Under the pieces are notes generated by a model. The model had not been told where the DNA came from. It made no database searches and was given only the letters and a program-made list of their open reading frames with translations. From assembly GCA_030549775.1 (NCBI GenBank), contig CM060174.1, positions 19,186,193-19,250,192 of the forward strand: a DNA stretch of 64,000 nucleotides, written 5' to 3'. This document shows, piece by piece, positions 20,300 to 64,000 of the stretch. The DNA comes from Tamarix chinensis (lineage: Eukaryota > Streptophyta > Magnoliopsida > Caryophyllales > Tamaricaceae). The first letter of the stretch is position 1; each line of letters starts with the position of its first letter. The position numbers and the translations under genes are program-made.

Positions 20300-21623
20300 T
20301 TAGACTAAATAAACTTTGTATTCCTAGATCTAGTATTCAAGACTTGCTAATCAAAGAAATACATGAAGGTAGCATTGCAGGACATTTTGGTTTACATAAG
20401 ACTATGGAACTATTGCAAGAAAATTTCTATTGGCCACGAATGGTTAAACATGTACAAGCCATGATAGTTAGATGTTCTACATGTTAAAAATGTAAGAGTT
20501 ACTTTCATAAAGGCTTATACACACCTTTACCCGATCCTGATAAACCATGGGAAGAAGTTAGTATGGACTTTATCCTAGGGTTACCAAGAACACAACGTGA
20601 TAAAGATTCTATTCCTGTGGTGGTAGATAGATTTTCTAAAATGGCTCATTTTATTCCATGTAATAGAACCGATGATGCCACGCATGTTGCTGACTTGTAT
20701 TTTAGAGAGATTGTTAAACTTCATGGTGTGCCTAGAAGCATAGTTTGAGATCGGGATGTCAAATTTATGAGTTATTTTTGGAAAACTATATGGCATATGC
20801 TTGGTACTAAATTGTTATTTAGCACTTCGCATCATCCACAAACCGACAGTCAAACTGAGGTAACTAATAGAACTCTTGGTACATTATTAAGAGGTTTAGT
20901 TAATAAAAGTACTAAAAATTGGGATGTTAAGTTAGCTCATGCAGTGCTTGCTTATAATCGTAGTCCATCTAGTACTACTCAAACTAGTCCGTTTGAGGTG
21001 GTGTATGGAGTGAATCCACACATGCCTATTAATATGATTCCTTTGAAAAAAGGTGAGTTACAAAATTATGAAGCCGAAGATAGAGTAAAAATTTTTCAAC
21101 GGCTTCATGAGAAAATCAAAAATAACATTGAAAAAGCTAATGCCAAGTATAAAGCTCAAGCAAATAATCATAGAAACCCTCATGTATTTTCTCATGGTGA
21201 CTTAGTTTGGTTACATTTGCGTAAAGAAAGATTGCCTAATTTACGTAAAAATAAACCAATGCCAAGAGCTGATGACCATTTAAAATACTAAGAAAGTTTG
21301 GGGATAATACTTATGAACTTGAACTTCCAGACCATTATGGTGGAATTTCAAGAACTTTTAATGTTAGTGATTTGTCTTCTTATTATACTAATGAAAATTT
21401 GAGGGCAAATTCTTCTCAACTTGGGGAGAATGATGTAGGAGCATCTAATGATTCTTATATTCCTATTGATTCTCAAGGTAAGGAAGAATTAGCTTTCTTA
21501 ATATCGGAGCCAATCATATTAAATGTTCTTGATAATATGTCTATGCTTGGTATTGAAAAAAATTCGAGATATTCTTGCAAGTATGTTACATATTTGCAAG
21601 GAGAAGATGTTAACACATCTTAA
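20300..21623 (+). pseudogene. Integrase of element A, running into the 3' LTR
   Basis: Integrase inserts the cDNA into the genome. The HHCC zinc-binding part lies near 20360-20500; its second CxxC is followed by a stop codon at about 20485. The catalytic core starts with MDFILGLP (first Asp, about 20563) and continues through DRDVKF (second Asp, about 20752) preceded by a TGA stop. The Glu of TEVTNRT lies at about 20857. The C-terminal part (21010-21290) includes [13 protein letters not shown] and a basic helix. After a frameshift near 21290 the last frame (21372-21623) passes the LTR start at 21431 and ends 193 bases inside the LTR with CKYVTYLQGEDVNTS. At least three disabling lesions are visible. 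Confidence 0.9.
21418..21430 (+). other. Polypurine tract of element A
   Basis: A purine-rich run (TTGGGGAGAA) directly abuts the 3' LTR, as required for plus-strand priming. The related element B has AAGAAGAGAA at the same place. Confidence 0.7.
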
Positions 21624-34234: not shown

Positions 34235-34490
34235 CCTGTGTAGTAAAAGTACTTAGAGTTCTATTAGTCACTTTAATTTGACCATCCATTTGTGGATGAT
34301 GAGAAGTACTAAACAACAATTTAGTACCTAATACGTGCTAAAGTGTCTTCCAAAAGTAATTTAAGAATTTAACATCTCTATCAAATACTATGCTTTTAGG
34401 AACTCTGTGTAACCTTACTATTTTTTAGAAATATAAGTCTGGTACATGTGTTGCATTATTAGTCTTATTGTACGGTATAAAATGTGCCAT
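34234..34490 (-). pseudogene. Integrase core middle of element B, out of frame
   Basis: The minus-strand DNA still shows the core between the two open fragments: a CATCCACAAATGG-like segment of the HHPQ block at about 34286-34300 and the DR-V-KF segment around 34370-34385, but with stops and indels. Confidence 0.55.
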
Positions 34491-34727
34491 TTAAAAAAAT
34501 CTATCTACTACCATAAAAATAAAATATTTATCCCTTTGCATTCTTGGTAATCCCAAAATAAAATCCATGCTAACATTTTTCCAAGGTTGATCAAGTATTG
34601 GTAAAGGAGTATACAAATCCTTATGGAAGAAACTTTTACTTTTTTGACAAGTTACGCATCTTCCTATAATAATTTGTACTAGTTTTATCATATGTGGCCA
34701 ACGTAGTTTTTCTTGTAGTATCTCCAT
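34491..34727 (-). pseudogene. Integrase zinc-binding part and core start of element B
   Basis: 78 codons containing CVTCQKSKSFFHK (second half of the HHCC zinc module) and [14 protein letters not shown] with the first catalytic Asp, closely matching element A 20470-20610. Confidence 0.85.
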
Positions 34728-35013: not shown

Positions 35014-36673
35014 TGGAACATCCCAAATATTATTATTATTTTAAACGGCATCATTTAAATTAAAACCTGTGAATTCTGGGGATGTTACCTCCACACTTAG
35101 TACTAGACAGGTTCTCTCCAACCGTTCCAGTACCAAGTGTTAAGGCTAAAAAGATTATTTTCAAACTTAAACTGAGAGTTCATAAAAGAACTAGAAAAAT
35201 CATAATATCAAAAATCAGAGTACGCATAAAAATTTATAATCAATAATAAGATAGAAATCTAAGTGCGAAATCAAAATTCCTCAGAGGGAATAATCTTACA
35301 ATCGATAAAAGGTTTATTTAAAATACTCAATACAAGTAATGAATCAAAAAGGATAAATCTGATACAAAAGAAATAACACCCGAACATAAATCGCATAAAG
35401 AATGAATACGACCACGACACTCCCGAATTTTTGAGCCAACCACAAGCTCAATATTCAGCCCCACCGGATGTCTCGCCCACCTGCACAAAGTCAAAAGGAC
35501 TTACTACTCATGGGAATAAGCAACACCCATAAAAAGGGTGATCAGTGTACTACGTACTGAGTAAGGTAACCATGCACTAAATTCTAAGTCCATCCATACA
35601 AAACCCTAAATTCTTTCATGCAAAACCCAAAATTCCTTCATACAAAACCCTAAATTCAATCCACACAAAATCCAAGGTTTCTCCATACAAAACCATAAAT
35701 TCAATATACAAACCATAGATTAGATTCTCCTATATTACACCATAGATTAAATTATCCTATGTTACACCATAGATTAAATTCTCCTATATAAAACTACAAA
35801 TTATATACTCCCATATAAAACCATAAATTTGATTCTTCCATACAAAACCATAGATTAGATTCTCCCATATAAAACCATAAATTAGATTTTCCCACATAAA
35901 ACCATAAATTAGATTCTCCCATGCAAATCTATAAATTATATTCTCCCACACGAAACCCTAAAATTCCCCATTTTGTTCTTCCACTCATGGATCATTAAAA
36001 TACTTAGATCAACTCACATCCCTTAGTCAACTTATTTTCCCATTATCTTTTTTCATCCTTTCTCCCACACAAACTGTATTAACATCCTCACATACATGTC
36101 TTATAGGGTCACAACACATATAATCACATACCACAGTATTTCATCACATATACATGATACACATGCCATGTAAACACACCAAAACATACTTCAACTCCAC
36201 ATCATACCACATATGAAATAATTAATAATGATAAACATAGAATACATAGCATACGAATCATACAATGCACATAAACACATAAAAGGCCTTAGTAACACCC
36301 TTACCTAAAACGACACCGGTCTTAGAACATGCTCCTATGCCTCCTTAGGGCTTTGACTAGTCTCACCTATATGAGGAAAAAACTAAAATTAGACTCCCTC
36401 CTATCAAAAATACTATTAAATACGAACTTATTCTAAGACTAGGTTTTTGATAAAATAATAAAATATTAATAATAATAACCATTAACAAAATACTAAATTT
36501 GGCTAAAAATATAAGAATTAATAGTAATATCATAAAAGTTGATAATATAAATTTTGAAAACTTTAGCCTAATAATAATAGCAAAGATACTAAAAATAATA
36601 AGAATGATAATATTAATAAGAATAATAATAATAGTAACAATAATCATACTAAAAATACTAATAATAATAATAT
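35014..36673 (-). mobile_element. Family-1 long LTR, copy b (truncated)
   Basis: Read on the minus strand, the LTR end lies at 35014 (decayed TGGAACATCCCAAATA for the usual TGTAACACCCCCAAAATT), preceded by the conserved stem-loop at 35094-35139. Further in come CACCGGATG and TGGGTGTTGCTTATTCCCATGAG (about 35500-35540), an AGGGTTT-derived minisatellite (35580-35970), GGAGGCATAGGAGCATGTTCTAAG (about 36325) and AT-rich TAATAA sequence (36430-36673). This order equals copies a and d. At 36673 it is cut off by the 5' LTR of element C. Confidence 0.8.
35580..35970 (-). repeat. Minisatellite in LTR copy b
   Basis: About fourteen degenerate units of 26-32 bp with the minus-strand core GGTTTTATATGGGAGAATCTAAT. 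The units nearest 35600 still read AGGGTTTTGTATG, linking this array to the AGGGTTT minisatellite of copy a. Confidence 0.75.
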
Positions 36674-39480: not shown

Positions 39481-40690
39481 GGATATAGATTCCGAATCTG
39501 AAGGTGAAGAATTAGAAATCAACACAGTGATGAGTGATATTAGTGAATCAGAAGAAGAGGTAGAACTTCCAGTGAGTAGAGATCTTTTTGTGGTACGAAG
39601 GGCTTTGAATAGTAATAAATTACCTGACCTAAACGTAGTACAAAGAGAAAATAAATTTCATACCAGATGTTTAATTAATGACAAGTGTTTTAATATGGCA
39701 ATTGATAGTGGAAGTTGTATCAATGCTGCTAGTATTCTATTAGTATCCAAATTAGGGTTACCAACCCCTAAACATCCAAAACCTTATAGGCTTCAGTGGT
39801 TGAATGAATTGGGAGATGTTAAGGTTAGTCGAAAGGTTTTAGTAAATCTAAAGTTAGGAAAATATGAGGACTCTGTTTTATGTGACATAGTACCCATGCA
39901 TGTTGCTATCTTTTGTTGGGAAGATCATGGCAGTATGATAGGAGAGTAACCCATGATGGCTATAAAAATAGGTATACAGTGTATAAGGATGATAGGAAAA
40001 TTATTTTAGCACCTATGACTCCAAAGGAAATCTATGATGATCAAGTCAAAATAAAGTCTGATTATAAAGAGTTAACTAAGCAAAATGTAGATGCTGGAAC
40101 TTGCTCAAATGGGCTTAAGAAATCATCTGGATTTTATACTAAGAAGAGTGAGGTTGAAAGAGCTATTAGTCAAAGTGAAAATGTGTATCTAATGGTGGTA
40201 TAAGGAGTGTTATTAGTGTCATGCAGACTTAATTAAGACTGTACCTAATAATGTTAAGGAATTATTAGAGGGATATATTAAATTGTTTCCTGAAGAAAAT
40301 CCCCATGGATTACCTCTATTAAGGGGCATAGAACATCAAATAGATTTTATACCAGGGGTTGTCATTCCCAATAGACCTACTTATAGGGCTAATCCAGAGG
40401 AAGTAAAGGAGTTAAAGAAGTAGGTTTCTAAGTTATTAAGTAAAGGTTATATTAGGGAATCAATGAGTCCTTGTGTTGTACCAGTTCTTTTAGTTCCAAA
40501 AAAAGGATGGAAGTTGGAGAATGTGTATAGATAGTAAGGTTGTAAATAAAATAACAATTAAATATAGGTATCCTATACCTAGATTAGATGAGATGTTAGA
40601 TATTTTACATGGGGCTGTAGTATTTTCTAAAATAGACTTGAAGAGTGGATATCATCAAATTAGGATGAAACCAAGAGATGAGTGGAAAAC
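39480..40690 (+). pseudogene. pol of element C, first part: protease and start of reverse transcriptase
   Basis: An aspartic protease motif (AIDSGSC) lies at about 39700-39720, in the frame 39359-39949 that also holds the zinc knuckle. A frameshift occurs near 39930; the next frame (39913-40203) has SWQYDRRVTHDGYKNRY, the usual end of the protease region. A stop follows at 40201. Reverse transcriptase starts near 40360 (IPNRPTYRANPEE), has a stop at about 40421 and a frameshift near 40510, and continues in frame 40521-40690 ([16 protein letters not shown]) up to the insertion point. Confidence 0.85.
40686..40690. repeat. Target site duplication of the gag-only element, left copy
   Basis: AAAAC, repeated at 46886-46890. 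Removing the insertion and one copy leaves the reverse transcriptase frame of element C continuous. Confidence 0.93.
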
Positions 40691-41244
40691 TGTAATCCCC
40701 CAAAAATTTCGAAAACCTATATTTTAATAAATAACTTTTATTTAACATAATAGTTTCTTTTTTTAAATTATTTATTTTAATCATTTATGGATTTTAGAGT
40801 ACGTAAATTCGGGTAAGAGTATTTAATAAATTTAAAATAAATATTTTGTTATTTACCATATTATTTTATTTAAATAATTTTCCAAACCAACATTTTACTA
40901 ACCTTATCCTTCTTAAATTAATATATTAGATTATAATGAATTAAATTATTAAATTAAATAATTTATCAAGAATATTACATTTATGATTTTATATATTAAT
41001 TTATTTTATTTTTCCTATTTTCTCATTTCCCTTTTTGCCCCTTTTCCCTCTTTCCTCTTTCTTCCCTTCTTTTTCTTTTTTTTTTTCTTTCTCCCCTCGG
41101 GCCGCCACACCCAGGCCGGCCCTTTCCCCCGCACAGTGGGCCTCGGCCCACCGCCCCCTCTCTTCTTCCCCCCTCTCTCCCGCGTGCTTGACCCGGCCAG
41201 TCTCCCCGTTTCTTTTTTTTTTCTTTTCCCCCTGGACCGACTGG
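40691..41244 (+). repeat. Truncated 5' LTR of the gag-only element
   Basis: Matches 42297-42852 nearly base for base, ends abruptly after CCCCCTGGACCGACTGG, and is followed at once by gag sequence. About 4 kb of LTR, the primer-binding site and the first part of gag are missing. A 17-bp direct repeat (GTACGAGATTTCGATAG at 41248 and 41269) marks the junction. Confidence 0.9.
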
Positions 41245-41245
41245 C

Positions 41246-42138
41246 GTGTACGAGATTTCGATAGTTGGGTACGAGATTTCGATAGGACTTTCGAGGCACT
41301 TAACTGTCCTGAGGAACGAAGGACAAACATCACGGCGTATTTCCTTCGAGGACCAGCCGATACTTGGTGGGAAGATCTTTGAACTCAAGGAGGATGACCG
41401 GCATCATGGGAAGACTTCAAGACCGCCATCCGTACGCGTTTCTACACGGAAAGTCTCAAGAGGGCCAAACTCAAGGAATTTATGGAGCTGACACAAGGAA
41501 ACCTATCAGTTCGAGAGTACTACGCACGATTTACGGAGTTGCTGAGGTTCGCCCCCGGAATAGCAGCTAGCAAGGCAACGAAAATCTTTCAATTCGAGCA
41601 AGGACTCCGATTCCACATCCGAAGTATGATGGGCGCTGACATTTTCCACGACCTGAGTACGCTGTACGAGCGGGCATGTAACGTCGATGCCTTGATCCAA
41701 GAACAAGCCTCCATCCTGGGTAAGAGAAAGAACGAAGAGACTGAGACCGAAGCAAGGAGCCATCGCCCCAATAGCAAAGTGTTACGGGACCATCCTCAAC
41801 TCCGAACTAAAGCTCAGCGTAAGAAGAATCAAAGTACTTCCAAGGCAAAGTCCATCAAGAGATCGGACCGACACTACCACTGCCGACGTTGCAAAAGAGA
41901 TCATCCAGGCAAGGATTGCAGGGGAAAGCTTATTCAGTGCCATGACTGTGGACAACTTGGGCATAGAAGTTTCGAATGCTACAGTGCGCCCCGTGAAAGA
42001 ATCCAGAGGCTAGGGCAAACATTGGATCGACAGAATCAAGCACTTGGAGTAATCCGTTCAGCCTCGTTAACCGAAGAAGATGAGCAAGTATTTGATCATG
42101 GTGTAACCTCTTCCAGTTGTCTGTCGGGTTCCACGTGA
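41246..42138 (+). pseudogene. gag of the nested element, 5'-truncated
   Basis: The longest clean frame is 41482-42138 (218 codons, stop at 42136-42138). Upstream, homologous Gag sequence (PADTWWEDL, the typical Trp-rich Gag core) occurs in another frame at 41246-41382, so a frameshift lies near 41383. The core continues with GNLSVREYYARFTELLRFAP and QFEQGLRFHIRSMM. Near the end are two zinc-finger-like motifs: CRRCKRDHPGKDC (41881-41919, one residue short of the standard spacing) and a standard CCHC knuckle CHDCGQLGHRSFEC (41938-41979). The end is followed directly by the untranslated 3' part. A normal autonomous relative would continue into protease and reverse transcriptase. Confidence 0.85.
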
Positions 42139-42280
42139 TTATTTGTATTATTAGCTATGTGTGTAGTTGTTTTCCTTAGTTAAGTAAGTTTTTCTTTAAG
42201 GGGGTAGTTACCCCAAGTAACTTAGGATCCCTTCATGTAACCCTAGAGCTAAGGCCCAAACTTCGGGGACGAATTTTCTC

Positions 42281-42296
42281 TTTAAGGGGGTAGTGA
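42281..42296 (+). other. Polypurine tract of the gag-only element
   Basis: TTTAAGGGGGTAGTGA abuts the 3' LTR. A near copy (CTTTAAGGGGGTAGTTA) lies about 90 bp upstream at 42195-42211, a possible second tract or duplication. Confidence 0.85.
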
Positions 42297-44249
42297 TGTA
42301 ATCCCCCAAAAATTTTGAAAACCTATATTTTAATAAATAACTTTTATTTAACATAATAGTTGCTTTTTTTAAATTATTTATTTTAATTATTTATGGATTT
42401 TAGAGTACGCAAATTCGGGTAAGAGTATTTAATAAATTTAAAATAAATATTTTGCTATTTACCATATTATTTTATTTAAATAATTTTACAAACCAACATT
42501 TTACTAACCTTATCCTTCTTAAATTAATATATTAGATTATAATGAGTTAAATTATTAAATTAAATAATTTATCAAGAATATTACATTTATGATTTATAAA
42601 TTAATTTATTTTATTTTTCCTATTTTCTCATTTCCCTTTTTGCCCCTTTTCCCTCTTTCCTCTTTCTTCCCTTCTTTTTCTTTTTTTTTTCTTTCTCCCC
42701 TCGGGTCGCCACACCCAGGCCGGCCCTTTCCCCCGCACAGTGGGCCTCGGCCCACCGCCCCCTCTCTTCTTCCCCCCCTCTCCCGCGTGCTTGACCCGGC
42801 CGGTCTCCCCGTTTCTTTTTTTTTTCCTTTTCCCCCTGGACCGACCGGCCAACTTTTTTCCCTCCTTTCCCCCGACCGGCCGCCACAGCCTCCTTTCTTC
42901 TTTCTTCTTCCCCCAGGCGTCGACAGCAGCTGTCGCCCGACCACCTGCGACTGCCGCCGCCTGCCGCCGCACCTACCCCTGCTACTCCCTCTCTCTACCC
43001 CGTCCTCTTCTCCCCTATTTCGAGCCAATCTACCCCTGCACCCTATCCATGCCTGCCATTCTCTCCTCCCCGTCGCCACCCTCTCCCTGCCACCCTACCG
43101 CCTCCCTGCCACCCTATGCACTGCCATCTGCCCCCTTACCCTTCCTCTTCTTTTCATTCCCCCATTCGTCCACCTTCCTGCCCCATTTTCGAGCCATCTT
43201 CCCACCCCCGAGCTCCCTCCTCTCTCCTTCCTTCTTTCCATTTTTTTTTCTGTTTTTCTCTGCCCCGCCGCCGTCCGCCGCTCCGACCGCCACACCCAAC
43301 CCTTGCGCCGACTCCTGCCACCACCCCCTACTACCCTGCACCCCCACGCCGCCCCCTTGAGCCCTACACTTCCTCCCTTCTCCACCCCTTCTTTCTTTTC
43401 TCCCCATTTTCCCCTTATCGCCAGCCATCTTCGCCGCCTTACCGCCGCCGTCTTTGCCGCCTTCAGCCGCCGCGAAACCATCCTTGGCCACCACCAACAC
43501 CCCCTCTTCACTCCTACATCCTTACCTTGCCTCCAAACCTCCCCCAACCACCCTCTTCTCTAGCCCAAAGACCTCTACCCGAACATGGCTCATTTTTCTT
43601 CCTTCACCCCTCTTCGAGCCTTTTCCTCTCCCATTTATGCATGACACTCACGCTGCTCATGCAGGGTGAGGTTTCCCCTTGTGTTGGAAATTTTTTGGAA
43701 AATTTTTGAGGTATAATGATAATTATTTAAAGTGTTTTATTAAATAAATTTCTTTTATAAAGTCTTATCCTTTTTATTTCTTATTTCTAACACAATAGTG
43801 ATGGATGTTATTTTAGGTGTTGAATTGTTAATTATGCTTGGTAAGGTTTGATATTTTGCGGGATTAAGGTAATCGTTAAACCCCACTTAAACACATGATA
43901 AACGTATGTTTACACATTAGGAATTTTTATATGTTATTATGGTTGATACATGGTTGTTAATATAAATTATATGGTTGCTTGTATTCTCTAATAAAAAGGA
44001 AAGTATGCTCTTTTATGTAATATGTGTGGAGATATTTCCTAAGGGAAGAATTTGACTATTAATGAGAGTGTTAATCAATTATCCATGTCATTTTATGTGA
44101 TTGTGACCCCTTTATGCATGAATAATATTGTTGTGAACCCGAGGGGCATTTTTGTAATTTTTCTTAGGTTAGGTTACGGCCTAATATGTGTAGGTGCTAA
44201 TATGTATCATGTCAAATGTAATGGTTGGTGGAGTTGAACATTGTTAAGG

Positions 44250-45390
44250 GAGCACTAATATTGTTATTTCATGTGGAAATGTTAAATTAATAGAAGTGGT
44301 ATAATAATGGGGGTAAAGTGGTAATTTCGAGGGAAAAGGGCAATATGGTAATATTTGGAGGTAGAAGGGAGAAATAGTAATTTTATAAGTAAGTGGTGAA
44401 AATAGTAATTTCATAAGTAAGTGGTAATATGATAAATTTTATAAGTGAATGGCGACACGGTAATTTTGTAAGTGAGGGGTATTATGGTAATTTTGTGAGT
44501 AAAAGGTTAATATGGTAATTTTGGAAAAGAAGGGCAAAATGGTAATTTGGTAATGAAAGATAAAAATGATAATTTTGGATGTAAAAGGGTAAGATAGTAA
44601 TTTGAAAAGAAAAAGGGGTGTTATGGTAATTTTACAAGTAAAAGGGGTATGGTGGTAATTTTCATAAATAAAAGGAGTATTATGGTAATTTATAAGCAAA
44701 AGGGTAATACGGTAAAATTGGATGTAAGGGGTAAAATGGTAATTTCGTAAATAAAAGGATATGAAGAAGGGTATTATGGTAATTTTAATAATGGAGAAGG
44801 GTAACATAGTAATTATGGATATGGATAAGGGATATGGATAAGGGTAAATTAATAAACATGATTATGAAGAAGGATAACTTAATATTGGTAATTATGAAGA
44901 AGGGTAATTTGTGAGTTATAATAATTAAAAAGGGTAAATGGCAATTAAAAATAATTGAGAAGGGTAGGATGGTAATTATGATAAAAGAGAAGGGCAATTC
45001 GGTAAATTATCCAACTAAAGGGACAACTTGGTGACTTAGCCAATTAAAGGATAAAGTGATAATTACTTAACCAACTAAAGGGGCAAATTAGCAATCATGA
45101 TAAGGAAGAGGGGTAAGTGAGTAATTTATCCAACTCAAGGGCAATTTAGTAATTACAACAAAGGAGAAGGGCGATTTGGTAATTTAACCAACCAAATGGG
45201 AAATATGATAAGTGTAGCAATTATGAGGAATGAATGGTGATCTAAAAAGCGTAGGAGGTAACTTGATAACCTAAATCGGATAAGGGGTAATTCAGGAATT
45301 ATGTAACCTAAAGGGTAGCAGGGTAATTTGTTAATGAGGAATGGATGACTTGGCGATTACATAAGTAAGGGGTAAATAAGTGATTTGTAC
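44250..45390 (+). repeat. GGTAATTTT degenerate tandem array in LTR copy c
   Basis: More than 25 degenerate units of about 28-36 bp of the type AAAGGGGTATTATGGTAATTTTGTAAGTA over 1.1 kb. The minus strand at the very end of the window (about 63925-64000, in copy e) shows the start of the equivalent array. Confidence 0.85.
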
Positions 45391-46039
45391 CTAATTTGTT
45401 GTGATTGTGGAACCTGATAATGTGATTTAAATAAGGCTGATTAGCCAAGTAAGAGTATTTGATAATTGGTATGGCCTTGATGATTTCTCTGTGACATCCT
45501 GATAATCCTCTGAATAAGAAACGATTAATGATATCGAAACGATCAAAAGTGAATAAGTATCGGATTATCGTGCTTTTCGTGATCACCCTAATTAAGACAC
45601 TATTACTTAAAGTGAAAGACCTCGAGATCGAGAATGGTGACTCCTTAGGGGTCGCTACCCTAAGGACGTGGTTTAGTCCACGATTATTCTGGTATTTGCT
45701 GGTGTATCTTTGTGCCCCAGTCAGGCCCTATATCTTACTCTTTCTAGCTCTACGGACCTAGTTAGGGGGTATGCATACTTATGGATTAGGTGTCCTTGTC
45801 AGTAGGGTACTGAGTTAGCTTTATGCACCAGTACGACCAGGGTACCCTTGTGTCCTTGGGTTCGTGGTTGAAAGGGTACTGAGTAGCGGATATGCACCGG
45901 TACGACCGGTGTACCTTTGTGTCCCGGGTTATCGATCTCCCGTTCGAGGCAGATAAATATGATTGATGTGATGATTAAAGAAAGGAAAGATACTATATTT
46001 GAAAGTGGAATATTAATGAGTCGGGCCTAGTGATTTATG

Positions 46040-46205
46040 ATATTGAGTACCGGTCCACCGGTTATAATAGTGGCCAGGAGCGTTGTGCCCTGGGTGATGA
46101 TTCTTTATAAATCCCGGTCCACCGGTTATAATAGTGTCCAGGAGCGTTGTGCCCTGGATGATGAGTTTATGTATATTCCGGTCCACCGGCAATAATAGTG
46201 GGGGT
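46040..46205 (+). repeat. TCCACCGG-CTATAATAGTGG repeat block, copy c
   Basis: Three units with GGTCCACCGGTTATAATAGTG at 46050, 46116 and a diverged third near 46179, spaced about 65 bp, separated by CCAGGAGCGTTGTGCCCTGG, which is itself palindromic. Confidence 0.88.
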
Positions 46206-46739
46206 CCCGAGCTCAATAAAACCAGTTATGTATGTGAATAAAATTATGGGCAAGTACTAAACACTTATAGTGGAACAAGGGCTTAAGGCCTAATTGTTTT
46301 GAGTTTGCGTTATGATATGGCTTAAGACCGTAAGTACCGATTGTTCGTAACGATATAATGATATGTTATGTGAATGTTAATTATGTGAATGTTGTATATG
46401 TTTGTAGCTTGTTTCGTGTGTTGCTTTGCGGGCCTGCTTTTAAGTGGGACTTTAAAGGGTTACTCAGTACCGTAGTACTGAAGGGTTCCATTCGTGGGGG
46501 CCCTGCCTATTCAATGGGCAGTGTTCCTTGCAGGTCTTTTCAGGTGCTACTCAAGTGGGCAACGGGGAAGAGAGTAAGGTCTCATCCAGAACTACTAGGG
46601 TTTTTCTCTCTCTCTCTTTGAAATTTCTGGTTTTAAATGTATATGTGGATACTGTAACCATGTAAACGTTTGATATGCTACTCTGATTTAAGTATGTTGA
46701 AATTCTTGCGAATCGTATTTCATTTTCCTTTAGCCTTAG

Positions 46740-46785
46740 CACTTAGTACTGGAACGGTATGAGTGAACCGGTCTGGTACTGAGTG
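46740..46785 (+). other. Conserved stem-loop near the LTR 3' end, copy c
   Basis: CACTTAGTACTGGAACGGT, an 8-base loop, then ACCGGTCTGGTACTGAGTG; 15 of 19 positions pair. Equivalent stems lie at 9673-9719, 35094-35139 (minus), 54873-54918 and 62210-62255 (minus), with a decayed one at about 24619-24664. See the finding for a discussion. Confidence 0.75.
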
Positions 46786-46885
46786 CGGCGGTAATACTCC
46801 CAAAATTTACGGTTTATTAATTTGTTTCCGCTAGTTTCCTTTTAATTAACGAAATTTTTCAGTAGTGAATTTTGGGGGTGTTACA

Positions 46886-46890
46886 AAAAC
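46886..46890. repeat. Target site duplication of the gag-only element, right copy
   Basis: AAAAC, identical to 40686-40690. Confidence 0.93.
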
Positions 46891-48859
46891 GGCCTTTAAG
46901 ACAATTTTTGGGTTATATGAGTGGTTAGTTATGCCATTTGGATTATCTAATGCTCCAAGTACTTTCATGCGACTTATGAACCATGTGTTTAGAAATTTTA
47001 TTAGGAAGTTTGTAGCTGTATATTTTGATGACATACGCATTTATAATAAATCTATGGAAGAACACTTGAAACATTTGAGGATCATTTTGGATGTGTTTAA
47101 GGAAGAGAAATTGTATGCTAATTTGGCTAAGTCAAGGTTTTTCTTATAAAGTGTAGTATTCTTGGGATTTGTAATTAGTAAGGATGGAATATCTGTTGAT
47201 AAGGATAAGGTTAAGGTAATATAAGAATGGCCTATACCTAGATTAGTGAGTGAAGTTAGAAGTTTACATGGATTGTGTTCTTTTTATCGTAGGTTTGTTA
47301 AGAATTTTAGTAGCTAAGCAGAACCTTTAACTGCAATTACAAAAAAAGAAAGTGGATTTAAATGGGAGTTAGAACAACAGAAAGCTTTTGAATCTCTTAA
47401 GGCAAAATTAATACAAGCTCCTGTATTAGTTCTTCCAAATTTTGAAAAGATGTTTGAATTGGATTGTGATGCTTCAGGTTTGGGAATTGGGGTTTTTCTT
47501 TCTCAAGAGGATAGACCCATAGATTATTTTAGTGAAAAGTTAAGTGGCAGTACTTTGAATTATTCTACTTATGAGAAAGAATTATTTGCTTTAGTAAGGG
47601 CTTTGGAAGTGTGGCAGCATTATTTGTGGCCTAAAGAATTTGTTATTAATACTGATCAAGAAGCTATAAAATATCTGAAAAATCAATCAAAGTTCAATAG
47701 AAGGCAGGGTAGATGGATAGAATTTATTGAGAGTTTCCCTTATGTGATTAAATATAAGAAAGGAGGTGATAATGTAGTTGCTGATGCATTATCTAGAAGA
47801 TATTTTTTATTGAATACAGTAGATCCAAATTTATTGGGGCTTTCTCATATTAAGACTTTATATGCTGAGGATCATGACTTTAAGGAATTATATAAAAATT
47901 GTGAAACTGCTGCCCAATGGAAATATTACCTTTTTGATGGATATTTGTTTAGGGAAAGTAGGCTTTGTGTACCTAATTGTTCATACAGAGGGTTATTAAT
48001 CCAAGAGGCACATAATGGTGGTTTAATGGCACATTTGGATTTTCAAAAGGCTTTAGATGTATTAATTGATTGTTTTTATTGGCCTCATATGAAAAAGGAT
48101 GTGTTAAAGTATTGTGTGAATTGTGTGGCTTGTAAACATGCTAAGTCCACTTCTCAACCATTTGGGTTGTATACACCATTACCAATTCCAACCCAGCCAT
48201 GGGCTGACATTTCTTTAGACTTTGTTTTATGATTACCTAGGACCAATAGGGCTAAGGATTCTATCATGGTTGTTGTAGATAGATTTAGTAAAATGGCACA
48301 TTTTATACCTTGTAATAAGACTAATGATGTTGTGACTATAGCAAACTAATTCTTTTCACATATAGTCAAATTATATGGGGTACTACGGATCATAGTATCT
48401 GATAGGGATGTTAAGTTTTTAAGTCATTTTTGGAAAGTATTATGGGATAAATTAGGGACTAAGATTTTATTTTTGACTACCTGTCATCCTCAAACTGATG
48501 GAAAAATAGAAGTAGTAAATAGGACTTTAGGTAACATGCTGAGAGCTGTAATTGAGAAAAATCTTAGACAATGGGAGGCTATATTACCACAGGTAGAATT
48601 TGCTTATAATAGGACTATAAATTCTACAAATAAGAAGAATCCTTTTGAAATTATGTATGGTTTTAATCCACTAACTCCTCTTGATTTGGTTCCTTTACCT
48701 AGTTCTGAGTTACATAATTTGGATGCTGAGTCTCGTGCAGAAAAGATGAAGAAATTACATGAATCTGTAAGTCAACAAATTAATAAAAGAGTTCAACAAA
48801 TGGCTGAGGTTGCCAATAAAAGAAGAAGGAAAACTGTTTTTCAACCTAGGGATTTAGGC
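46891..48859 (+). pseudogene. pol of element C, second part: reverse transcriptase end, RNase H and integrase
   Basis: Continues the reverse transcriptase exactly where 40690 left off: [19 protein letters not shown] and the catalytic YFDD at 47021-47032. Stops occur at about 47147, 47221 and 47315. RNase H is in the open frame 47450-48232 ([33 protein letters not shown]), which also contains the integrase HHCC zinc module ([12 protein letters not shown] near 48120) and the start of the core (DISLDFVL). A TGA at 48230 and a stop at about 48348 break the core. The second Asp (DRDVKF, about 48406) and the Glu (about 48508) are in the frame reading 48473-48907. That frame leaves element C homology at about 48859 (FQPRDL). 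Confidence 0.9.
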
Positions 48860-49450
48860 CCTTCTAAGGGTTTCGCCAACCAAGGAAGTGATGTGTTTTG
48901 GTTGTAAGAGCAAGCTTAGCCCAAGATTCATTGGGTCATAAGAGCTTTTGGATTGAGTTGGATAGGTTTCTTATTATCTTGCTTTGCAGGTGCAGCTTTT
49001 GCCCGTGCATAATGCTTTCCACATTTCTTAGTTGAGGAGGTATGTGTCGGATCCATCACACATCATTCAGTCAGAGACGATTGAGCTCGATGAGATGTTG
49101 ACTTACGAGGAGTGTCCGCTGAGGATTCTGGATTCTAAGAATCGGGAGACATGTTCAAAGATCATTCCACTCGTGAAGGTGTTGTGGTCACGCCATGGGG
49201 TAGAGGAGGCCACTTGGGAGTCCTAGGAGGAGATCAAGATGATGTATCTAAAGTTGTTCGCTTAGGTGTGTTGCACGGGTAACACCGCCTCTTTCAAGGA
49301 GGTAGTAGGTAGTACCCTTTTTCTTGTGTATTAACCCTTAGTTATTGTAATCTTTTGTTGGATCGCTTAGCATTACTTATGTTTTAAACTTACAATAATG
49401 TATTTCTTTTGTGGACTTCGAGGATGAAGTCTCTTTTAAGGGGGTAGTGT
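48860..49450 (+). mobile_element. 3' end of a Del/Tekay-like gypsy element, fused to element C
   Basis: After a join in the middle of the integrase C-terminus, the sequence changes to a different element. 48988-49260 encodes the last integrase part and a chromodomain: LRRYVSDPSH, LTYEECPLRILDSKNRE, IPLVKVLWSRHGVEEATWES, with stops at about 49030 (before LRRY) and at 49224. Del/Tekay elements end with just this block. It is followed by an untranslated stretch with GGACTTCGAGGATGAAGT, a polypurine tract (49433-49450) and an LTR start at 49451. The part 48860-48987 is not recognised. Confidence 0.8.
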
Positions 49451-51777
49451 TGTAATATTTCATCCTAAAATTCTTCAAATTGTATTTAGAATTATGCTGA
49501 TATAAAAGAAAAGAGTTTTGGTTTTGAAATGGGCATAAAATTCTACTAAAAATATGAATTTTAGGCATACTGATTAGCTGGTGTGCTGGGGAAATTTATA
49601 TTCTTGTCCTTAACAAACCAGTTGACTAGTTTACCCAAACTGATCGATCGGTTTGCCTACAATTTCATATCCATTTCTAATTTTGATTCATAATTTTCTC
49701 TAAGGATTATGACAACTTCCAATTTGAGTTCAATCATACTAATAAGCATGTTTTAGTGCTCTCGTATTAGTTTCACATTAATTAGATCATTATATGATTT
49801 TAATTAGCAAAATTTTCCCAAAAAGCTACTTTTGGAGGCAAGCCTCCATTTTTCCTTCTCCCTCACCTCTTTCTCTCTCTCCTAGCAGATGGGGCTGCAA
49901 TTTTTGACTTTGTGCACCCTTCCTTGACTTTTCAACCCACTATCATGCTCATATCTTACTACACTCAACCCCCACCACTCCATCAAATCAACCCTCACTT
50001 CTTAGCTTGCCCACACTCAACCTCACCAGTCTCATCCCTCCTTTTCCTAAGAATGTCAACCAGCCTGCTCCTGTACTTCTCATTTTTTGATCCATTGTCA
50101 TTTTCTGAAATACCCCAAAAATCCTAGTTTAGGAATTATGGCAAAATAATGATTTATTAGGAAAATTTAGAAAATAAATTATTTTATTAAATAAAGAGGA
50201 AATTAATTGAGAAAAGTAAAGAGAAAATAATAAATAAATTCTTTAAAAAATTTGGACATTTTACTAATTAAAATGGAAGTTAAGAAAAATTTATCCAAAA
50301 TAGCCCAATTAATCTAAAAATAAATTTAACTATTATACTTAAAATAATTATTATTAAAATTAAATATCTAACTTAAATATACAAAAAAATACCAAAATAC
50401 CCAACCCACATATTTTCCCTTTCTTTTTTCTTTTCTTTTCTTTCTTCTTCTTTCTCTTTTTTTTTCTTTTTCCTCCCCCGACCTGGGCCAACCCGTTGCG
50501 CGGCCCAGCTCCCCTGTGCAGCCCAGGCCCGCGCCGCTCCCCCCTTTCTTTTTTCTTCCTTCCCGGCCGGTCCGGTTCTCTTTTTCTTTTCTTCTTTTTC
50601 TCCCTGAGATGCCCAATCCCGATATCTTCTTCTTCCCTGAGGCGTGGCGGCGACCGAGGAGCTGCAACCCAGCACTCCGCCGGCCACCGTCCTCCCTTTC
50701 CTCTCCCGTCGTTTTCTTTCACTAGTTCAGCCCCATCCGACCCTTTTCCCCTCTCCCAAGCACCCTTCCCTTTCCCTTTCCCTCTTCCCTCGAGCTTGCT
50801 ATCCTGGCATGGCAATGCCGCCTCGACTACCACCACAGGCGGCATGCCTGGCATCTGCACCCCCTTGTCTTCATCTCCTTATCTTTGCCCAGCCAATCGA
50901 TCTATATATATACCCCATAGCTTGCCTTAATTCGAATTTTGATTTCGAAACCCCAGAATCAACCATTCTCGCCGCCGCCCCATTAGACGAGCCGTCCACC
51001 ACCGTCGCCTATCGTCGACGGCCAAAACACCCCCAAAACCACTCCTTGCACCACCCTCTACCTAACCAAACCCTCCTCGTCCCTCGATTTTCCCTGCACG
51101 AGCGATCCCGGCCGTGCAAAACTGCCAACCCAATCAACATATTTTCACCTCTCGCCGCCCCTCGCGCCGCCTTCTGCCGCCACCGTCGCCGCAACCAGCA
51201 CCTTCTCCACCCTCCAAAACACCCAGGGAACCTTCCCCTACCTTCCCATACCATCATCTCCCCCTGCCTCCCTCTCCTTTTCCTCCCCCATCTTCCACTA
51301 CCTTTGGCTGCCACACCAACCACCGTGCGCCGCCACTCCCAGCTGCACCACCACCTTCATTCCACCCCTCTTCACCTATTGCACCTTCCTCCACCTCAAA
51401 CACCCCTTCACTCCCTCTCTCTTAGCCTACATACCCATTTTTCCCCTCTTTTCCTCCTCCACCGCCGCCGCCGTCGCCGCCACGCGCCGCCGCCGGTTCC
51501 ACCACTAACCTTAGGTGGTGCTCCAACTTCCCCAGCCCCTAAACTATTTTCTATAAGTGTTAATAATTTTATTTAATATTAATGGTATTATCCTTAATAT
51601 TACTATTATTATTCTTATTATTATTATTAGTTTGTATTATCATTGTTAATATTATTATTATTATTACCATTTTAATATCATTATGTATCACCCTTATTTC
51701 CTAACCTAATTTCAGAAAATACTTATAACTAGGGTATGTTATCTAAAAAGGCTACAACTTTAACATTAAAATGGTTA

Positions 51778-51780
51778 TCC

Positions 51781-51838
<58 letters not shown>

Positions 51839-51877
51839 CATTATTATTATCATTATTATTATTATTATTATTAACGC

Positions 51878-51922
<45 letters not shown>

Positions 51923-52170
51923 CACTACTTAACCCTAACTTTTTATTTTTATTATTATTATTGGTATTATTACTATTGATATTACCATTATCATTATCAT
52001 TATTTCCTTGCTAGTATGGTTAATACTAACCTTGTCCATTATCACTCTTATTTATTAATATAAATATTTGGACCTTTGTATTACTATTATCATTATGGTT
52101 ACTATTATCATTGTTATTGTTATTATTATTGTACTTAACATTCTTATCATCATCATCATCATCATCATCA

Positions 52171-52223
<53 letters not shown>

Positions 52224-52225
52224 TA
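51778..52225. repeat. (TTA)n/(CAT)n microsatellites in LTR copy d
   Basis: Long TTA runs at about 51781-51838 and 51890-51920, and a CAT run followed by a TTA run at 52147-52222. They lie at the same LTR position as the microsatellites of copy a. Confidence 0.9.
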
Positions 52226-53984
52226 GACCAAAGTTGGAGTATTATCATTTTGTCGTTAAAAAGGAAGAATACCTAAGCCTTAGTATTTTACTGCTTAATA
52301 TTAGAATATCATTAATATATTATTCCTAATGCCTTTAGCACTAACATTGTTAATATGGTATCATTATTAGTTATTACTATTATTATTGTTATTATTTTAT
52401 TACTATTATTGTGACAAAAACATTTGAACCCTTATATTATCATTATTCAAAATACAACTTTTATCATTATTATTTTTAGGAATAATTGTACTTCGTTGGT
52501 ATCGTAATTATTATATTATTATTTTAATCCTAATACTATTATTAGACTTAGCCTTAAAAATGCCAGGGTTTCTATCACTATAAGCATTAGCATCACTATT
52601 ATTATTATTATTGTCATTATTTTGCTATAACTAGTATTAGTACTATTATTATAAGAATAAAGCTATTAGGTTTAATACTATAAGTATGGCATTAAATATT
52701 TAAAATAAGCATATTTTGGCTAGTAATATCTAGTGGGCTAACTTGAAGATAAAAACCCTAGTTTTCACGTATAATACTCCCTTTAATAATAACAATCCTA
52801 ATCTTAGACTAAAATAAGGAGTAATGGTACTTTTGGTAGGAGAGAAACTAATCCTTAGTACTTTCCTTTTATAGGTGAATCAAACCAAAATCCTAAGGAG
52901 TTGTAGGAGCGTGCTCCAAGCCCGACGTCACTTTAGGTAAGGACGTAACTAAGGCTGCCTGTGTGTTATGTGTTTTACTTGCCTTGGATTCCTTGTATGA
53001 TTTATATGTTCTATATGTTATCTGGTTTTATTGTGTAGCGCAGCTTGGAACCGAGGTATGTTCTCGTGCTCTTATCTAGTATGTGTTAATATGGATATGC
53101 TGCAAATATGATGTGATGGGATGTGACCCTTAGAACATGCATGCTAGGTTATTTGATGAGGTGTTGTGGAATGGGGACATGAAAGAGGAAAATGAGAAAT
53201 TAAGATAACCAAGGGGAAGTAAGTTGGCTAACGTAGGTAAGGATGACCTAGGTAATCTGTGATCCATGATTGGACAAGAAAAGGGAATTTAAATAAAATG
53301 GAAGAGTGGGAGAAACTAAGGTTACATGGGAGGAACTAGGGTTTGCATGGAAATAATAGGGTTTGGCATGGTAGAGATCAAGGGGTTTGCATGGGGAGGT
53401 TAAGGTCTGCATGGGGGCGAACCTTACGTATGGAAAGTTACTTTGGGATGTGGGGAAGGCAATGAAAGGTCTGTTTGGGAGTATGGAGGCTCGAGGTGAA
53501 AAATAGTATGTAGGATAATATAAGGGTACCTAGGGATCGACCAAGGTTTGGGGAGGAAACCCTAAATTGAGAATGTGGAAAAAGAAAAAGAAAATAATAA
53601 AAATAAACGAGGAGGAGCGAGATATGAGGGAAGAGTTGAGTGTGAGGGAGGCGTTATAGTATTGTGGGTTGTGGGAGGCAGGAAAGGAAGGGCCACATAG
53701 GCCCAGATTAGGGTTTCTGGTGAAAACCCTAGGGTAAGGTGGTGAGTAGACCTTGGGGTATAAGGTGGTGGGCCCTGACCCACACACTTAGAAGTTGGGT
53801 TCCCGGTGTGGGAAAGTGGGTTATGGGAAGGATGTCGAAGCAAGTTAGGAGGTTCAAAATATGGGGGAGGCCCTCCTAGGAGGATAAGTGCTGGTATAGC
53901 TAGCCATGCATGTCAAGGGTGAAAATCTTTTGAATAAGATATGTTAAGACACTAATCACTTACAGAGAAAGATGTTGAGCCGGA

Positions 53985-54310
53985 CCCAGACCGGTCCACC
54001 GGCAAATAATAGTGGCAGGGTATGTTACCCTCGTGACCAGTCCACCGGCTAAAATAGTGGCAGGGTATGGCCCTCGTGACCGTTCCACCGGCTATAATAG
54101 TGGGGGATTCCGTGTTCAACAAACCAATCATAATAATGATAAGACATGGGAAAGATACGAATATTTACAGTGAAACACCTTGTGAGTCGGGGCCAAACCG
54201 GTCCACCGGCAAATAATCGTGGCAGGGTATGTTACCCTCGTGACCGGTCCACCGGCTAAAATAGTGCCAGGGCATGGCCCTCGTGACCGTTCCACCGGCT
54301 ACAATAGTGG
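53985..54310 (+). repeat. TCCACCGG-CTATAATAGTGG repeat block, copy d
   Basis: Six units in two groups of three, separated by about 100 bp. Each unit carries GGTCCACCGG or GTTCCACCGG, A/T-rich TAATAGTGG, and GGCAGGGTATG..CCCTCGTGACC. The two groups are near copies, a higher-order duplication of about 200 bp. Confidence 0.85.
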
Positions 54311-55296
54311 GGTTCCCGTACTCACATGGATTGATAAAGACTATGATGTGGATTGATTATAATTATCAGAGATCTAATGAAAAAGTTATCTGGTTCATAA
54401 TCGGTATTGTTTATCTGTGTTATTGCATGCTATCTACGTAATCATGCCATATCTGCTATGTCATGTATCTCTGTGTATGTTGGCCTTAGTGCATCTGTTA
54501 CCTTACTCAGTACGTAGCGTACTGATCACCCATTTCATGGGTGCTGCTCATTCGCACGAGCAGAAGACCCATCTGAGCTTGTGTAGGTAGGGGATGATAT
54601 CTTCAATGCCTACGACACTTATGAGGCATCTGGTGGGGCTGAGTGTTGAGCCTAAACCTGACTTGGGGATCGAGAGTGACTCGGCCGGACTCTCTTTCTT
54701 TTAATGGACCTTGTATTATCATAATTTAGTTGTGTCTTCGTACTATGCTTTATGTTTTGAAAAACTCTAGTCACGTACTCTTTGGTTTGTAATCCTAAAT
54801 CGCACTCTGATTTCTGTATGACTTGTGTTTTATTAATGATTCGTGTTTAATGATAACTTTATTTAGCCTTAGCACTTAGTACTGGAACTGTAGGAGTGAA
54901 CCGATCTAGTACTAAGTGTGGCGGTAATGCCCCCGAGTTTACGGTTTTATCCTTTAGCTTCTCTAAACCCTTTTAATTAAAAGAAATTTTTCAGTAGTAA
55001 ATTTGGGGGTGTTACATATTCTTACTCTCTTCTCCCTTCTCCTTGTAAAAATTTCACTAAGTGTTGAGCACCCTTCTATTTTCCTCTCTTCTTTCTTCTA
55101 CTAAGAAAAATAGAGGTTCTATCTAATTTTATCCTTTAAATTGTGCAAGAATTATGTTCATTTCTCTTCTTCTAATATTAGGTTTAGTTCTCTCTTGCTT
55201 TCCTTAAGGAAAGAAGAATTAAGGTTGAGAAAAGTTGGAGATTGCAGCTTCTTTTTTAACACCCTATTTTGAGATAAAGGTGATGTTTTTTGTTTC

Positions 55297-62109: not shown

Positions 62110-64000
62110 TGTAACACCCCCAAAATTCACTACTGAAAAATTTCGTTTTATTTAAAAGAGTTAGCAGAAGCATAATACAAGACTGTGAATTCTGGAGATA
62201 TTACCACCACACTTAGTACTAGGCTGGTTCACTCCTACTGTTCCAGTACCAAGTGCTAAGGCTAAAAGTGTAAAACACAATTTACAACCCATTTTTAAAT
62301 CATAGTAGCATAACCAAACTATTTACAAGAATAAAATCCACTGGTGGTGGTTACAATAATAACAATAACATTAAAAACAAGAATTTAAAAGAGAAAGAGA
62401 AAAACCCTAACAGTTCCAGATAATTCATTACTCTCTTTTCCGTTTCCCACTTGAATAACACCTAAAAATGACCTACAAGGGACACTGCCCATTGAATAGG
62501 CAGGGGCCCCACAAATGAAACCCTTCAGTACTATGGTACTGAGTAATCCTTTAAAAACACACTTACAAGTAGGCCCACAATGCAACACATAAAACAAAGC
62601 TATATACTTATATAAATAGAAATGCATGCATCACAATCACATACTTAACATTCACACCCTTAACGAGTCCATCAATGTTAATGAGTCATAATGCAAAATC
62701 AATACTTTCGGGCCTTAAGCCATTAGTCCATCATGATTCAATCATCTCTCAGATTTTATATCCATGTGAGTGCGGGAACCCCACAATTATAGCCGGTGGA
62801 CCGGTCATGCAGGGCAACATGCTCCTGGCCACTATTATTCGCCAGTGGACCGGTCATGCGGGGTAAAATGCTCCTGGCCACTATTATTCACCAGTGGACC
62901 ATTCTAGCCCCGACTTACATGGTGTTCCACTATAAGTGATTAGTATTTTTCCATAACTTTATCTACATCCATGACTGATTTCATTGAGCTCGGGACCCCA
63001 ACTATTATTGCTAGTGGATCGGAATATATATCAACATCATCCAAGGCAACACGCTCCTGGGCTACTATTATATCTGGTGGATCGGTACTCATAATCATCT
63101 ACCAGGGCATCACGCTCTTGGGCCACTATTTTATTCGGTGGATCAGTACTCATAATCATCTACCAGGGCAACATGCTCCTAGACCACTTTTATATTTGGT
63201 GGGTCGGTACTCATATCATAATTTAACCGGACCCAGCTCATTAATCTTTCACTTCCATGATTAGTGTTTTTCCCTTTTTAATCAGCACAACAATTCCATT
63301 TATTTGCCTTAGACGGAAGATCAAGAACCCGGGACACAAAGGTACACCGATCGTACTGGTGCATACATGCTACTTGATACCCTTCAACCATCAACCCAGG
63401 GACGCAAAGGTACCCTAGTCGTACTAGTGCATAAAGCTACTCAGTACCTTACCGACAAGGACACCTAATCCATAAGTATGCATACCCCCTAAATAGGTCC
63501 GTAGAGCTAGATAGAGTAAGATATAGGGCCTGGATAGGGCACAAAGGCACACCAACAAATACCAGAATAATCATGGGCTAAACCACGTCTTTAGGGTAGT
63601 GACCCCTAAAGAGCCACCATTTCTGATCTCGAGGTCTTTCACTTTAAGTATTAGTGTCTTAATTAAGGTAATCACGAAAAGCACAACAATTAGATACTTA
63701 TTCACTTTAGATCGTTCTGGTATCATTAGGTATTTCTTATTCAAACAGTTATCTAAGATAACATAGAGGAATCATTAAGGCCATCATAACCTCATCCAAT
63801 TCTGATTTAGGATTCGTTCTCGTAATACTTACTAATCATCAGATACTCTTACCTTACTATTTAGTGTTACTTGAGTCTTATTACGAACCTCCAGTGTCCC
63901 ATCAACATGTTAGCTATGAATTACTGATTTACCCCTTACTTGTATAGTTATTAAGACATCCCTTCCTTACTTGCCAATTTACCATATCACCCTTTAGGTT
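62110..64000 (-). mobile_element. Family-1 long LTR, copy e (runs off the window)
   Basis: The minus-strand LTR end lies at 62110 (TGTAACACCCCCAAAATTCACTACTGAAAAATTTCG on plus, broken here at words), followed inward by the stem-loop (62210-62255), GGGCAGTGTCCCTTG-type sequence (about 62480), TCCACCGG-like blocks (62770-63230), the GGTACACCGATCGTACTGG / CTACTCAGTACC segment (63340-63470), and the start of the GGTAATTTT array at the window end. The order equals copy c, with the same phrases. A partner LTR and any internal region would lie beyond 64000. Confidence 0.85.

Follow-up and report, generated by a model that had tools for sequence, protein, structure and literature searches.

Does a retrotransposon that encodes Gag alone between very long terminal repeats (LTRs) represent the design of a family, or an autonomous element that has lost its pol? 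This question is raised by an element at 40691-46885 of the window (i.e. the whole 64,000-nucleotide stretch of Tamarix chinensis DNA that was analysed).

The element in the window

The element has the termini TGTAATCC...GGTGTTACA and is bracketed by an exact 5-bp target-site duplication, AAAAC, read in the sequence at 40686-40690 and 46886-46890; both features had been reported in a preliminary description of this DNA. The proposed nesting was also borne out, as the flanks read by eye as a gypsy reverse transcriptase split in two (40400-40685 upstream and 46891-47149 downstream, plus strand), indicating probable insertion into an older gypsy element. The 3' LTR, delimited by LTR comparison, occupies 42297-46885 (plus strand, 4589 bp) and contains a diverged minisatellite with a unit of about 27-30 bp (44311-44758, plus strand) and a 64-bp tandem repeat (46050-46201, plus strand). 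It is adjoined by the polypurine tract (PPT) TTTAAGGGGGTAGTGA (42281-42296, plus strand), which is preceded by a 3' untranslated stretch (42139-42280, plus strand) carrying the PPT-like word TTTAAGGGGGTAGT at 42195. No pol lies between gag and the PPT and 3' LTR, as described before. The segment 42260-42295 matches 49415-49449, where the outer element ends.

The 5' part of this copy is damaged. The 5' LTR (40691-41245, plus strand) corresponds to LTR positions 1-553, at 97.3% to the 3' LTR (K2P 0.020 over 552 sites); it keeps about 553 bp, after which the sequence switches directly to gag near residue 63-64. The primer-binding site (PBS), the leader and the first ~62 gag residues are absent, and everything between LTR position ~553 and gag residue ~62 has probably been lost. 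The gag remnant (41246-42138, plus strand; 86% to residues 63-325 of P0001) retains a match to the CA-like Pfam domain Retrotrans_gag (PF03732, E 4.1e-6) and two zinc knuckles (by eye), as expected of the gag frame described previously; it also lacks its start and has in-frame TGA codons at 41380-41382 and 41395-41397 in addition to the natural stop TGA at 42136-42138. As this copy is truncated, a gag-only family design cannot be inferred from it alone, which corrects the earlier argument from copy to family.

Other LTR-related places in the window are located at 9662-9803, 35057-35150 (minus strand), 54862-55016 (where a related LTR that begins near 50106 ends) and 62110-63784 (minus strand). 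The count of further copies or fragments is therefore four and not at least five, five being reached only if the element's own 5' piece is included. Small matches to the LTR start were dropped since they look like low-complexity pieces. With these corrections, the observation made in the window is confirmed, and the element is not a product of chance because LTR copies of this length, with 5-bp duplications of their own, recur genome-wide.

Gag-only architecture across the genome

Copies elsewhere in the genome were examined by three routes. Among the best 40 of 1500 candidates for a gag-through-PPT query (window included), 39 run unbroken to the LTR edge and the remaining match ends 12 bp before it. 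For a gag-alone query, the best 40 of 1044 loose candidates were scored, again including the window: 22 were already among the former 40, 14 further matches have the order gag-3' stretch-LTR, one reaches the PPT and is followed by no LTR match, and three break into other sequence, in which reading 600 bp revealed no pol. Elements were also reconstructed by pairing exact motifs of the 5' and 3' junctions. Half of the 46 five-prime sites found a partner, and all 23 resulting elements are short inside, with 948-2024 bp between their LTRs (1624-1829 bp in 21 of them); the other 23 sites lack an exact 3' partner, two of these adjoining gag copies already counted. The preliminary description had proposed asking whether most full-length copies carry pol. 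Among the copies covered this was not so: the 23 junction-paired elements, from 46 five-prime sites, all have the short internal regions given above, and pol was seen in the downstream DNA read of none of the 40 best gag matches (of 1044).

Three copies (i.e. C9, L051 and L053) have PBS, leader and full gag, and in each of them TGGTATCAGAG, which we take to be the initiator tRNA-Met primer site, sits 3 bp behind the LTR end. Exact LTR-PBS junctions number 115 genome-wide, and exact sites combining PPT and LTR start number 277 as compared to none in the control. Two LTRs of about 4947 and 4825 bp are present in copy C11, with an exact TATTT duplication on both sides, so that the known duplications of internal-bearing copies differ (AAAAC in the window). 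The family design thus shown consists of an LTR, a PBS 3 bp behind it, a leader of about 467 nt, a 355-codon gag frame ending in a stop of its own, a short stretch with a duplicated PPT-like word, the PPT and the second LTR. Usually 1.6-1.8 kb separates the two LTRs; the architecture occurs in many independent copies, and target-site duplications are present. Reverse transcriptase is absent from this family. In two pairs of loci, the 231-bp 3' ends are identical although the members lie on different chromosomes. The long LTR (mostly 4.3-4.9 kb) is likewise a family feature, and the combination of gag-only design and long LTR therefore holds as a family trait.

Protein searches with gag returned one and four proteins. 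One candidate, c12b, was considered as the 5' LTR of a downstream gag and rejected, as this LTR has its own GCCAT duplication and the gag appears to belong to a separate fossil element. Capture of a gene or an RNA by the long LTR was also rejected: four LTR frames contained no Pfam family and an Rfam scan of the long LTR gave nothing at gathering score.

Solo LTRs and candidate enzyme donors

Exact LTR ends number 8,079 genome-wide, of which 115 lead into an exact PBS. Solo LTRs therefore probably dominate, by a ratio that exaggerates their excess because exact motifs undercount old copies with internal regions, there are 1044 loose gag candidates and sister families may be counted along with this one by the LTR-end 20-mer. 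A list of 38 other LTR-start places was sampled by inspecting both ends of ten and the upstream side of 20. All ten LTRs, which were the top-scoring matches and not a random sample, are flanked by 5-bp duplications (one within an AT repeat), and a PPT lies upstream of one of the 20 further LTR starts. A large excess of solo LTRs is supported but not proven.

A Del/Tekay-like partner had also been suggested. Among 20 loci chosen for sharing the PPT/LTR start, four are preceded by what reads by eye as the tail of a Ty3 integrase with a chromodomain-like end, which lends such a partner indirect support, but their LTR bodies differ: the LTR starts of the sampled pol-bearing loci give weak matches, and no pol-bearing copy sharing this family's LTR body was found, so that the donor is not pinned down. 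Locus L101 contains SH3_Tf2-1 (PF24626) with no Pfam chromodomain match in the piece scanned, and its integrase pieces match L102-L104 at 48-66%. The family's LTR-end and PBS motif was found within 20 kb of none of the four pol-bearing loci, and elements whose LTR ends differ consequently escape the pairing test. Five of the 20 loci (L081, L085, L092, L094 and L100) fit no class, and extending the reading of two such loci by ~500 bp on the upstream side revealed no long frame. In L095 a gag-type tail is fused to the LTR end and in L090 the LTR end is fused to another tail; both were counted with neither the nine nor the four of the classed loci. The four pol-bearing loci are plausible enzyme donors, and the findings suggest that a borrowed integrase may need end motifs rather than LTR bodies.

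Competing explanations

The window element very probably belongs, as a damaged copy, to a Ty3-type family that is non-autonomous and gag-only (TR-GAG type) and would borrow its enzymes. Its genomic RNA would be packaged in particles of its own or a related Gag, and reverse transcription and integration would be performed by the enzymes of a pol-bearing, Del/Tekay-like chromovirus recognising the LTR end, PBS and PPT that both have in common. The closely spaced long LTRs may then recombine, yielding solo LTRs at a high rate. The large 5'-side deletion could instead indicate a simple internal deletion, in which an autonomous element lost its pol after insertion. This explanation is extremely improbable, being largely contradicted by the same gag-PPT-LTR order in copies on many chromosomes and by the short interior of every junction-paired element.

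The role of gag separates the remaining explanations. Stop codons interrupt three of four compared gags (two in the window, one in C9 and two in L051), and the LTR length resembles that of LARDs, as if the family were a passenger moving by its cis ends alone with gag as a useless, decaying relic. However, the fourth gag is open across all 355 codons, dN/dS is 0.29-0.47 in all six pairs of the four gags (pairs that are not independent and are without a neutral control), and a much older fossil copy, whose gag has 46% identity, has the gag-PPT-LTR order too (by eye). Such a passenger is therefore unlikely, and constraint on gag appears supported by these comparisons, short of proof. The conserved look of this gag and the existence of pol-bearing relatives that share the family's PPT/LTR start would also fit a family that supplies Gag to those relatives, with mutual dependence in place of host and parasite. 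This is quite improbable, as nothing marks the relatives' gag, itself not in view, as defective; if they do lack a working Gag, both partners would be mutually dependent. A fuller version of the borrowed-enzyme reading, with an old self-sustaining gag-only lineage, a selected Gag, several chromovirus donors engaged via the PPT/LTR start and LTRs long enough for near-universal collapse to solo LTRs, is unlikely to hold as a whole.

LARDs have LTRs near 4.5 kb and no pol, both of which are shared by this family; the difference is that the internal region, non-coding in LARDs, here encodes Gag in 355 codons. TR-GAGs, for which the founding paper is reportedly that of Chaparro et al. 2015, are a closer match. 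As defined in the parts of PMC6022998 and PMC5818461 consulted, they have LTRs and a single gag frame without pol, in agreement with the earlier statement that such elements are known in plants, and a passage of PMC8704663 describes the transposition of one such element in Arabidopsis ddm1. The family shares this definition, with two LTRs and a duplication (C11), PBS and PPT beside the LTRs and a Gag-only internal region. It differs, in a comparison with TR-GAG by definition only, in that an LTR is about 2.5-3 times as long as the internal region and in the great excess of exact LTR ends over exact LTR-PBS junctions. This natural set in one genome (115 junctions and 8,079 ends) lets one ask why some non-autonomous elements retain gag and how the LTR-to-internal length ratio drives solo-LTR formation.

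In rice, Spip and Squiq (with RIRE3 and RIRE8) and Dasheng (with RIRE2) are presented in the relevant part of PMC1940013 as LARDs with autonomous counterparts and highly identical LTRs; the LTRs of RIRE3 and RIRE8 are about 3 kb according to a passage of PMC3485330. On these excerpts, the present family is similarly non-autonomous with pol-bearing counterparts, but in its sampled pol-bearing relatives the PPT and LTR start are shared and little of the LTR body is. Rice Retrosat2, described in PMC3485330, also has very long LTRs (over 3.2 kb) but encodes gag-pol and ORF0, in contrast to gag only. Non-autonomous plant elements with gag only (TR-GAG) or with long LTRs (Spip, Squiq and Dasheng) are thus already known, and this family adds a TR-GAG-type example to them and defines no new kind of element.

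A damaged copy in the window

The preliminary description had placed a gag-only long terminal repeat (LTR) retrotransposon at 40691–46885, and this element proved genuine. AAAAC is present at both flanks, and the insertion interrupts an older gypsy element within its reverse transcriptase. The element starts with TGTAATCC and ends with GGTGTTACA; the 3' LTR (42297–46885) measures 4589 bp while 555 bp remain of the 5' LTR (40691–41245), equivalent to LTR positions 1–553 with 97.3% identity. Sequence passes straight from the end of this remnant at 41245 into gag, which begins at approximately residue 63–64 of the related gag protein P0001, matches Pfam Retrotrans_gag (E = 4.1e-6) and contains TGA codons at 41380 and 41395. 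The window copy is defective and, being truncated and damaged, its absence of pol could itself be part of the damage. An insertion age of ~0.8–1.4 My was estimated from the LTR piece (K2P 0.020, 552 sites) using two substitution rates. A polypurine tract (PPT)-like word, TTTAAGGGGGTAGT, is present twice, at 42195 and 42281 (i.e. a spacing of 86 bp), and a comparable doubling was observed in gag-type 3' ends at sampled PPT loci.

Other related sequences were detected in the window. A related LTR of ~4.9 kb at 50106–55016 (+ strand; TGAAATACCCC...GGGTGTTACA) is apparently solo, is flanked by TTTTC and TATTC (4 of 5 bases alike) and exhibits 82–83% identity to the element's LTR over the final 157–159 bp. 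Pieces of related long LTRs lie at 62110–63784 (- strand), 9662–9803 (+ strand) and 35057–35150 (- strand). Weak Ty3 integrase matches at 20512–20892 (+ strand) and 34254–34616 (- strand) represent further decayed gypsy elements.

Gag-only structure across the family

The proposal that the gag-only design is a family trait was upheld by three tests, which agree within their reach. In a genome search using gag through the PPT to the final base ahead of the LTR, the best 40 of 1500 candidates (90–100% identity), including the window, were scored; 39 reached the query end unbroken and one ended 12 bp early. As this ranking prefers unbroken copies, gag alone was searched and the best 40 of 1044 candidates, again including the window, were scored. 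Twenty-two were already in the former list and the remaining 18 were read for 600 bp downstream. Fourteen continue via the 3' stretch into the LTR, and another (L063) extends as far as the PPT, beyond which no LTR was matched; in three (L058, L061 and L062) gag is broken off into other sequence, with no pol visible by eye in these 600 bp.

The third test was independent of the gag query. Exact sites of LTR end plus primer binding site (PBS) numbered 115 genome-wide and those of PPT plus LTR start 277 (control, 0 for both). Sites ≤20 kb apart were paired from contig C1 to part of C4, covering 46 five-prime and 100 three-prime sites among the matches listed. All 23 resulting pairs, several of which overlap with the gag match lists, had inter-LTR distances of 948–2024 bp (median 1741 bp; 21 at 1624–1829 bp), a pairing that is blind to elements with a different LTR end. 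Two of the 23 listed five-prime sites without a partner adjoin gag copies already counted. Within the sets examined, full-length copies with pol were not in the majority: every paired element was short and the 40 gag matches had no visible pol in the DNA read.

In better-preserved copies (C9, L051 and L053), 3 bp separate the LTR end from TGGTATCAGAG, which corresponds to an initiator tRNA-Met PBS. Next come a leader (~467 nt) and gag, whose frame closes at codon 356; the internal length is 1692–1693 bp. Gag is open throughout in L053 and contains one stop codon in C9 and two in L051. Most of the 5' LTR is missing from L051 and most of the 3' LTR from L053, and neither LTR of C9 is complete within the stretch read. 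The C11 copy has both LTRs (3' LTR, 4825 bp; 5' LTR, ~4947 bp with its 3' boundary placed from other copies) and TATTT at either side. Outer ends were sampled in four copies, with both found in C11, one each in C7 and C10 and none in C6.

All ten LTRs inspected at both ends, being top matches and hence a non-random sample, were solo with 5-bp duplications, one within an AT repeat; eight measured 3.9–4.9 kb and two (5.4 and 8.8 kb) contain inserts. A PPT was present upstream of 1 of 20 additional LTR starts. The terminal 20 LTR bases occur exactly 8,079 times genome-wide with an exact PBS following in 115, a ratio overstating the true solo excess because PBS sites accumulate mutations with age and the 20-mer may also occur in sister families.

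Candidate partners and apparent gag constraint

A subset of 20, drawn from the 100 PPT sites among the matches listed, was read for 200 bp upstream; it was picked to cover all four motif variants, such that rare variants are enriched. A gag-type 3' stretch was found at nine (seven distinct sequences, with two identical pairs) and a pol end in its place at four (L082, L084, L088 and L089); the rest comprised one fusion of a gag-type tail and LTR end, one LTR end with another tail and five unclassified sites. Longer reads of the pol-end loci (L104, L103, L102 and L101) exhibited integrase-tail and chromodomain-like ends by eye. L101 contains SH3_Tf2-1 (PF24626, E = 2e-23), and five other pieces of L101 matched no Pfam family. 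Pieces of L101 match L102–L104 at 48–66% (L103 through the chromodomain-like piece only) and the outer gypsy element of the window at 34–55%. The 16-base PPT and LTR bases 1–15 (one free) are common to the four relatives and the gag-only family. Their LTR bodies differ from the family, the best match being L102 to the sister LTR at 50106 (71.5% over 390 columns). These reads show that enzymes that match the family's PPT and LTR end are present in the genome; the four relatives are a candidate enzyme source by which the gag-only family could possibly be moved.

Identical 231-bp gag-only 3' ends occur on different chromosomes in L087/L093 and in L096/L098, suggesting recent copies or duplicated segments. 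In L092/L106 and L100/L105 the PPT and LTR start are as in the family and the upstream 700 bp are AT-rich with no visible gag or pol frame, perhaps representing a third, non-coding class.

Gag dN/dS was 0.29–0.47 in six of six pairs from four gags; as these pairs are mutually dependent, include post-insertion decay and lack a neutral control, the values are support, not proof, for a gag that is apparently under constraint. A much older gag near locus c12b (46% identity to P0001, many stops) is followed, by eye, by a doubled PPT-like stretch and an LTR start in the same order as in the family, so that the design, judged from this fossil, looks old.

Comparison with known elements

The gag-only family has the structure by which TR-GAG elements are defined (PMC6022998, PMC5818461), and its membership of this already known kind is well supported. 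No gag-only family with comparably long LTRs was found in the titles and opening lines of abstracts of the literature searched, and no priority is claimed. LTRs of >3 kb are described as not frequent (PMC3485330). TR-GAG elements are reported to be able to transpose in Arabidopsis ddm1 (PMC8704663), and the rice non-autonomous families Spip, Squiq and Dasheng have pol-bearing counterparts (PMC1940013). The notable attributes of the Tamarix family are LTR length, an apparently constrained gag and an excess of solo LTRs.
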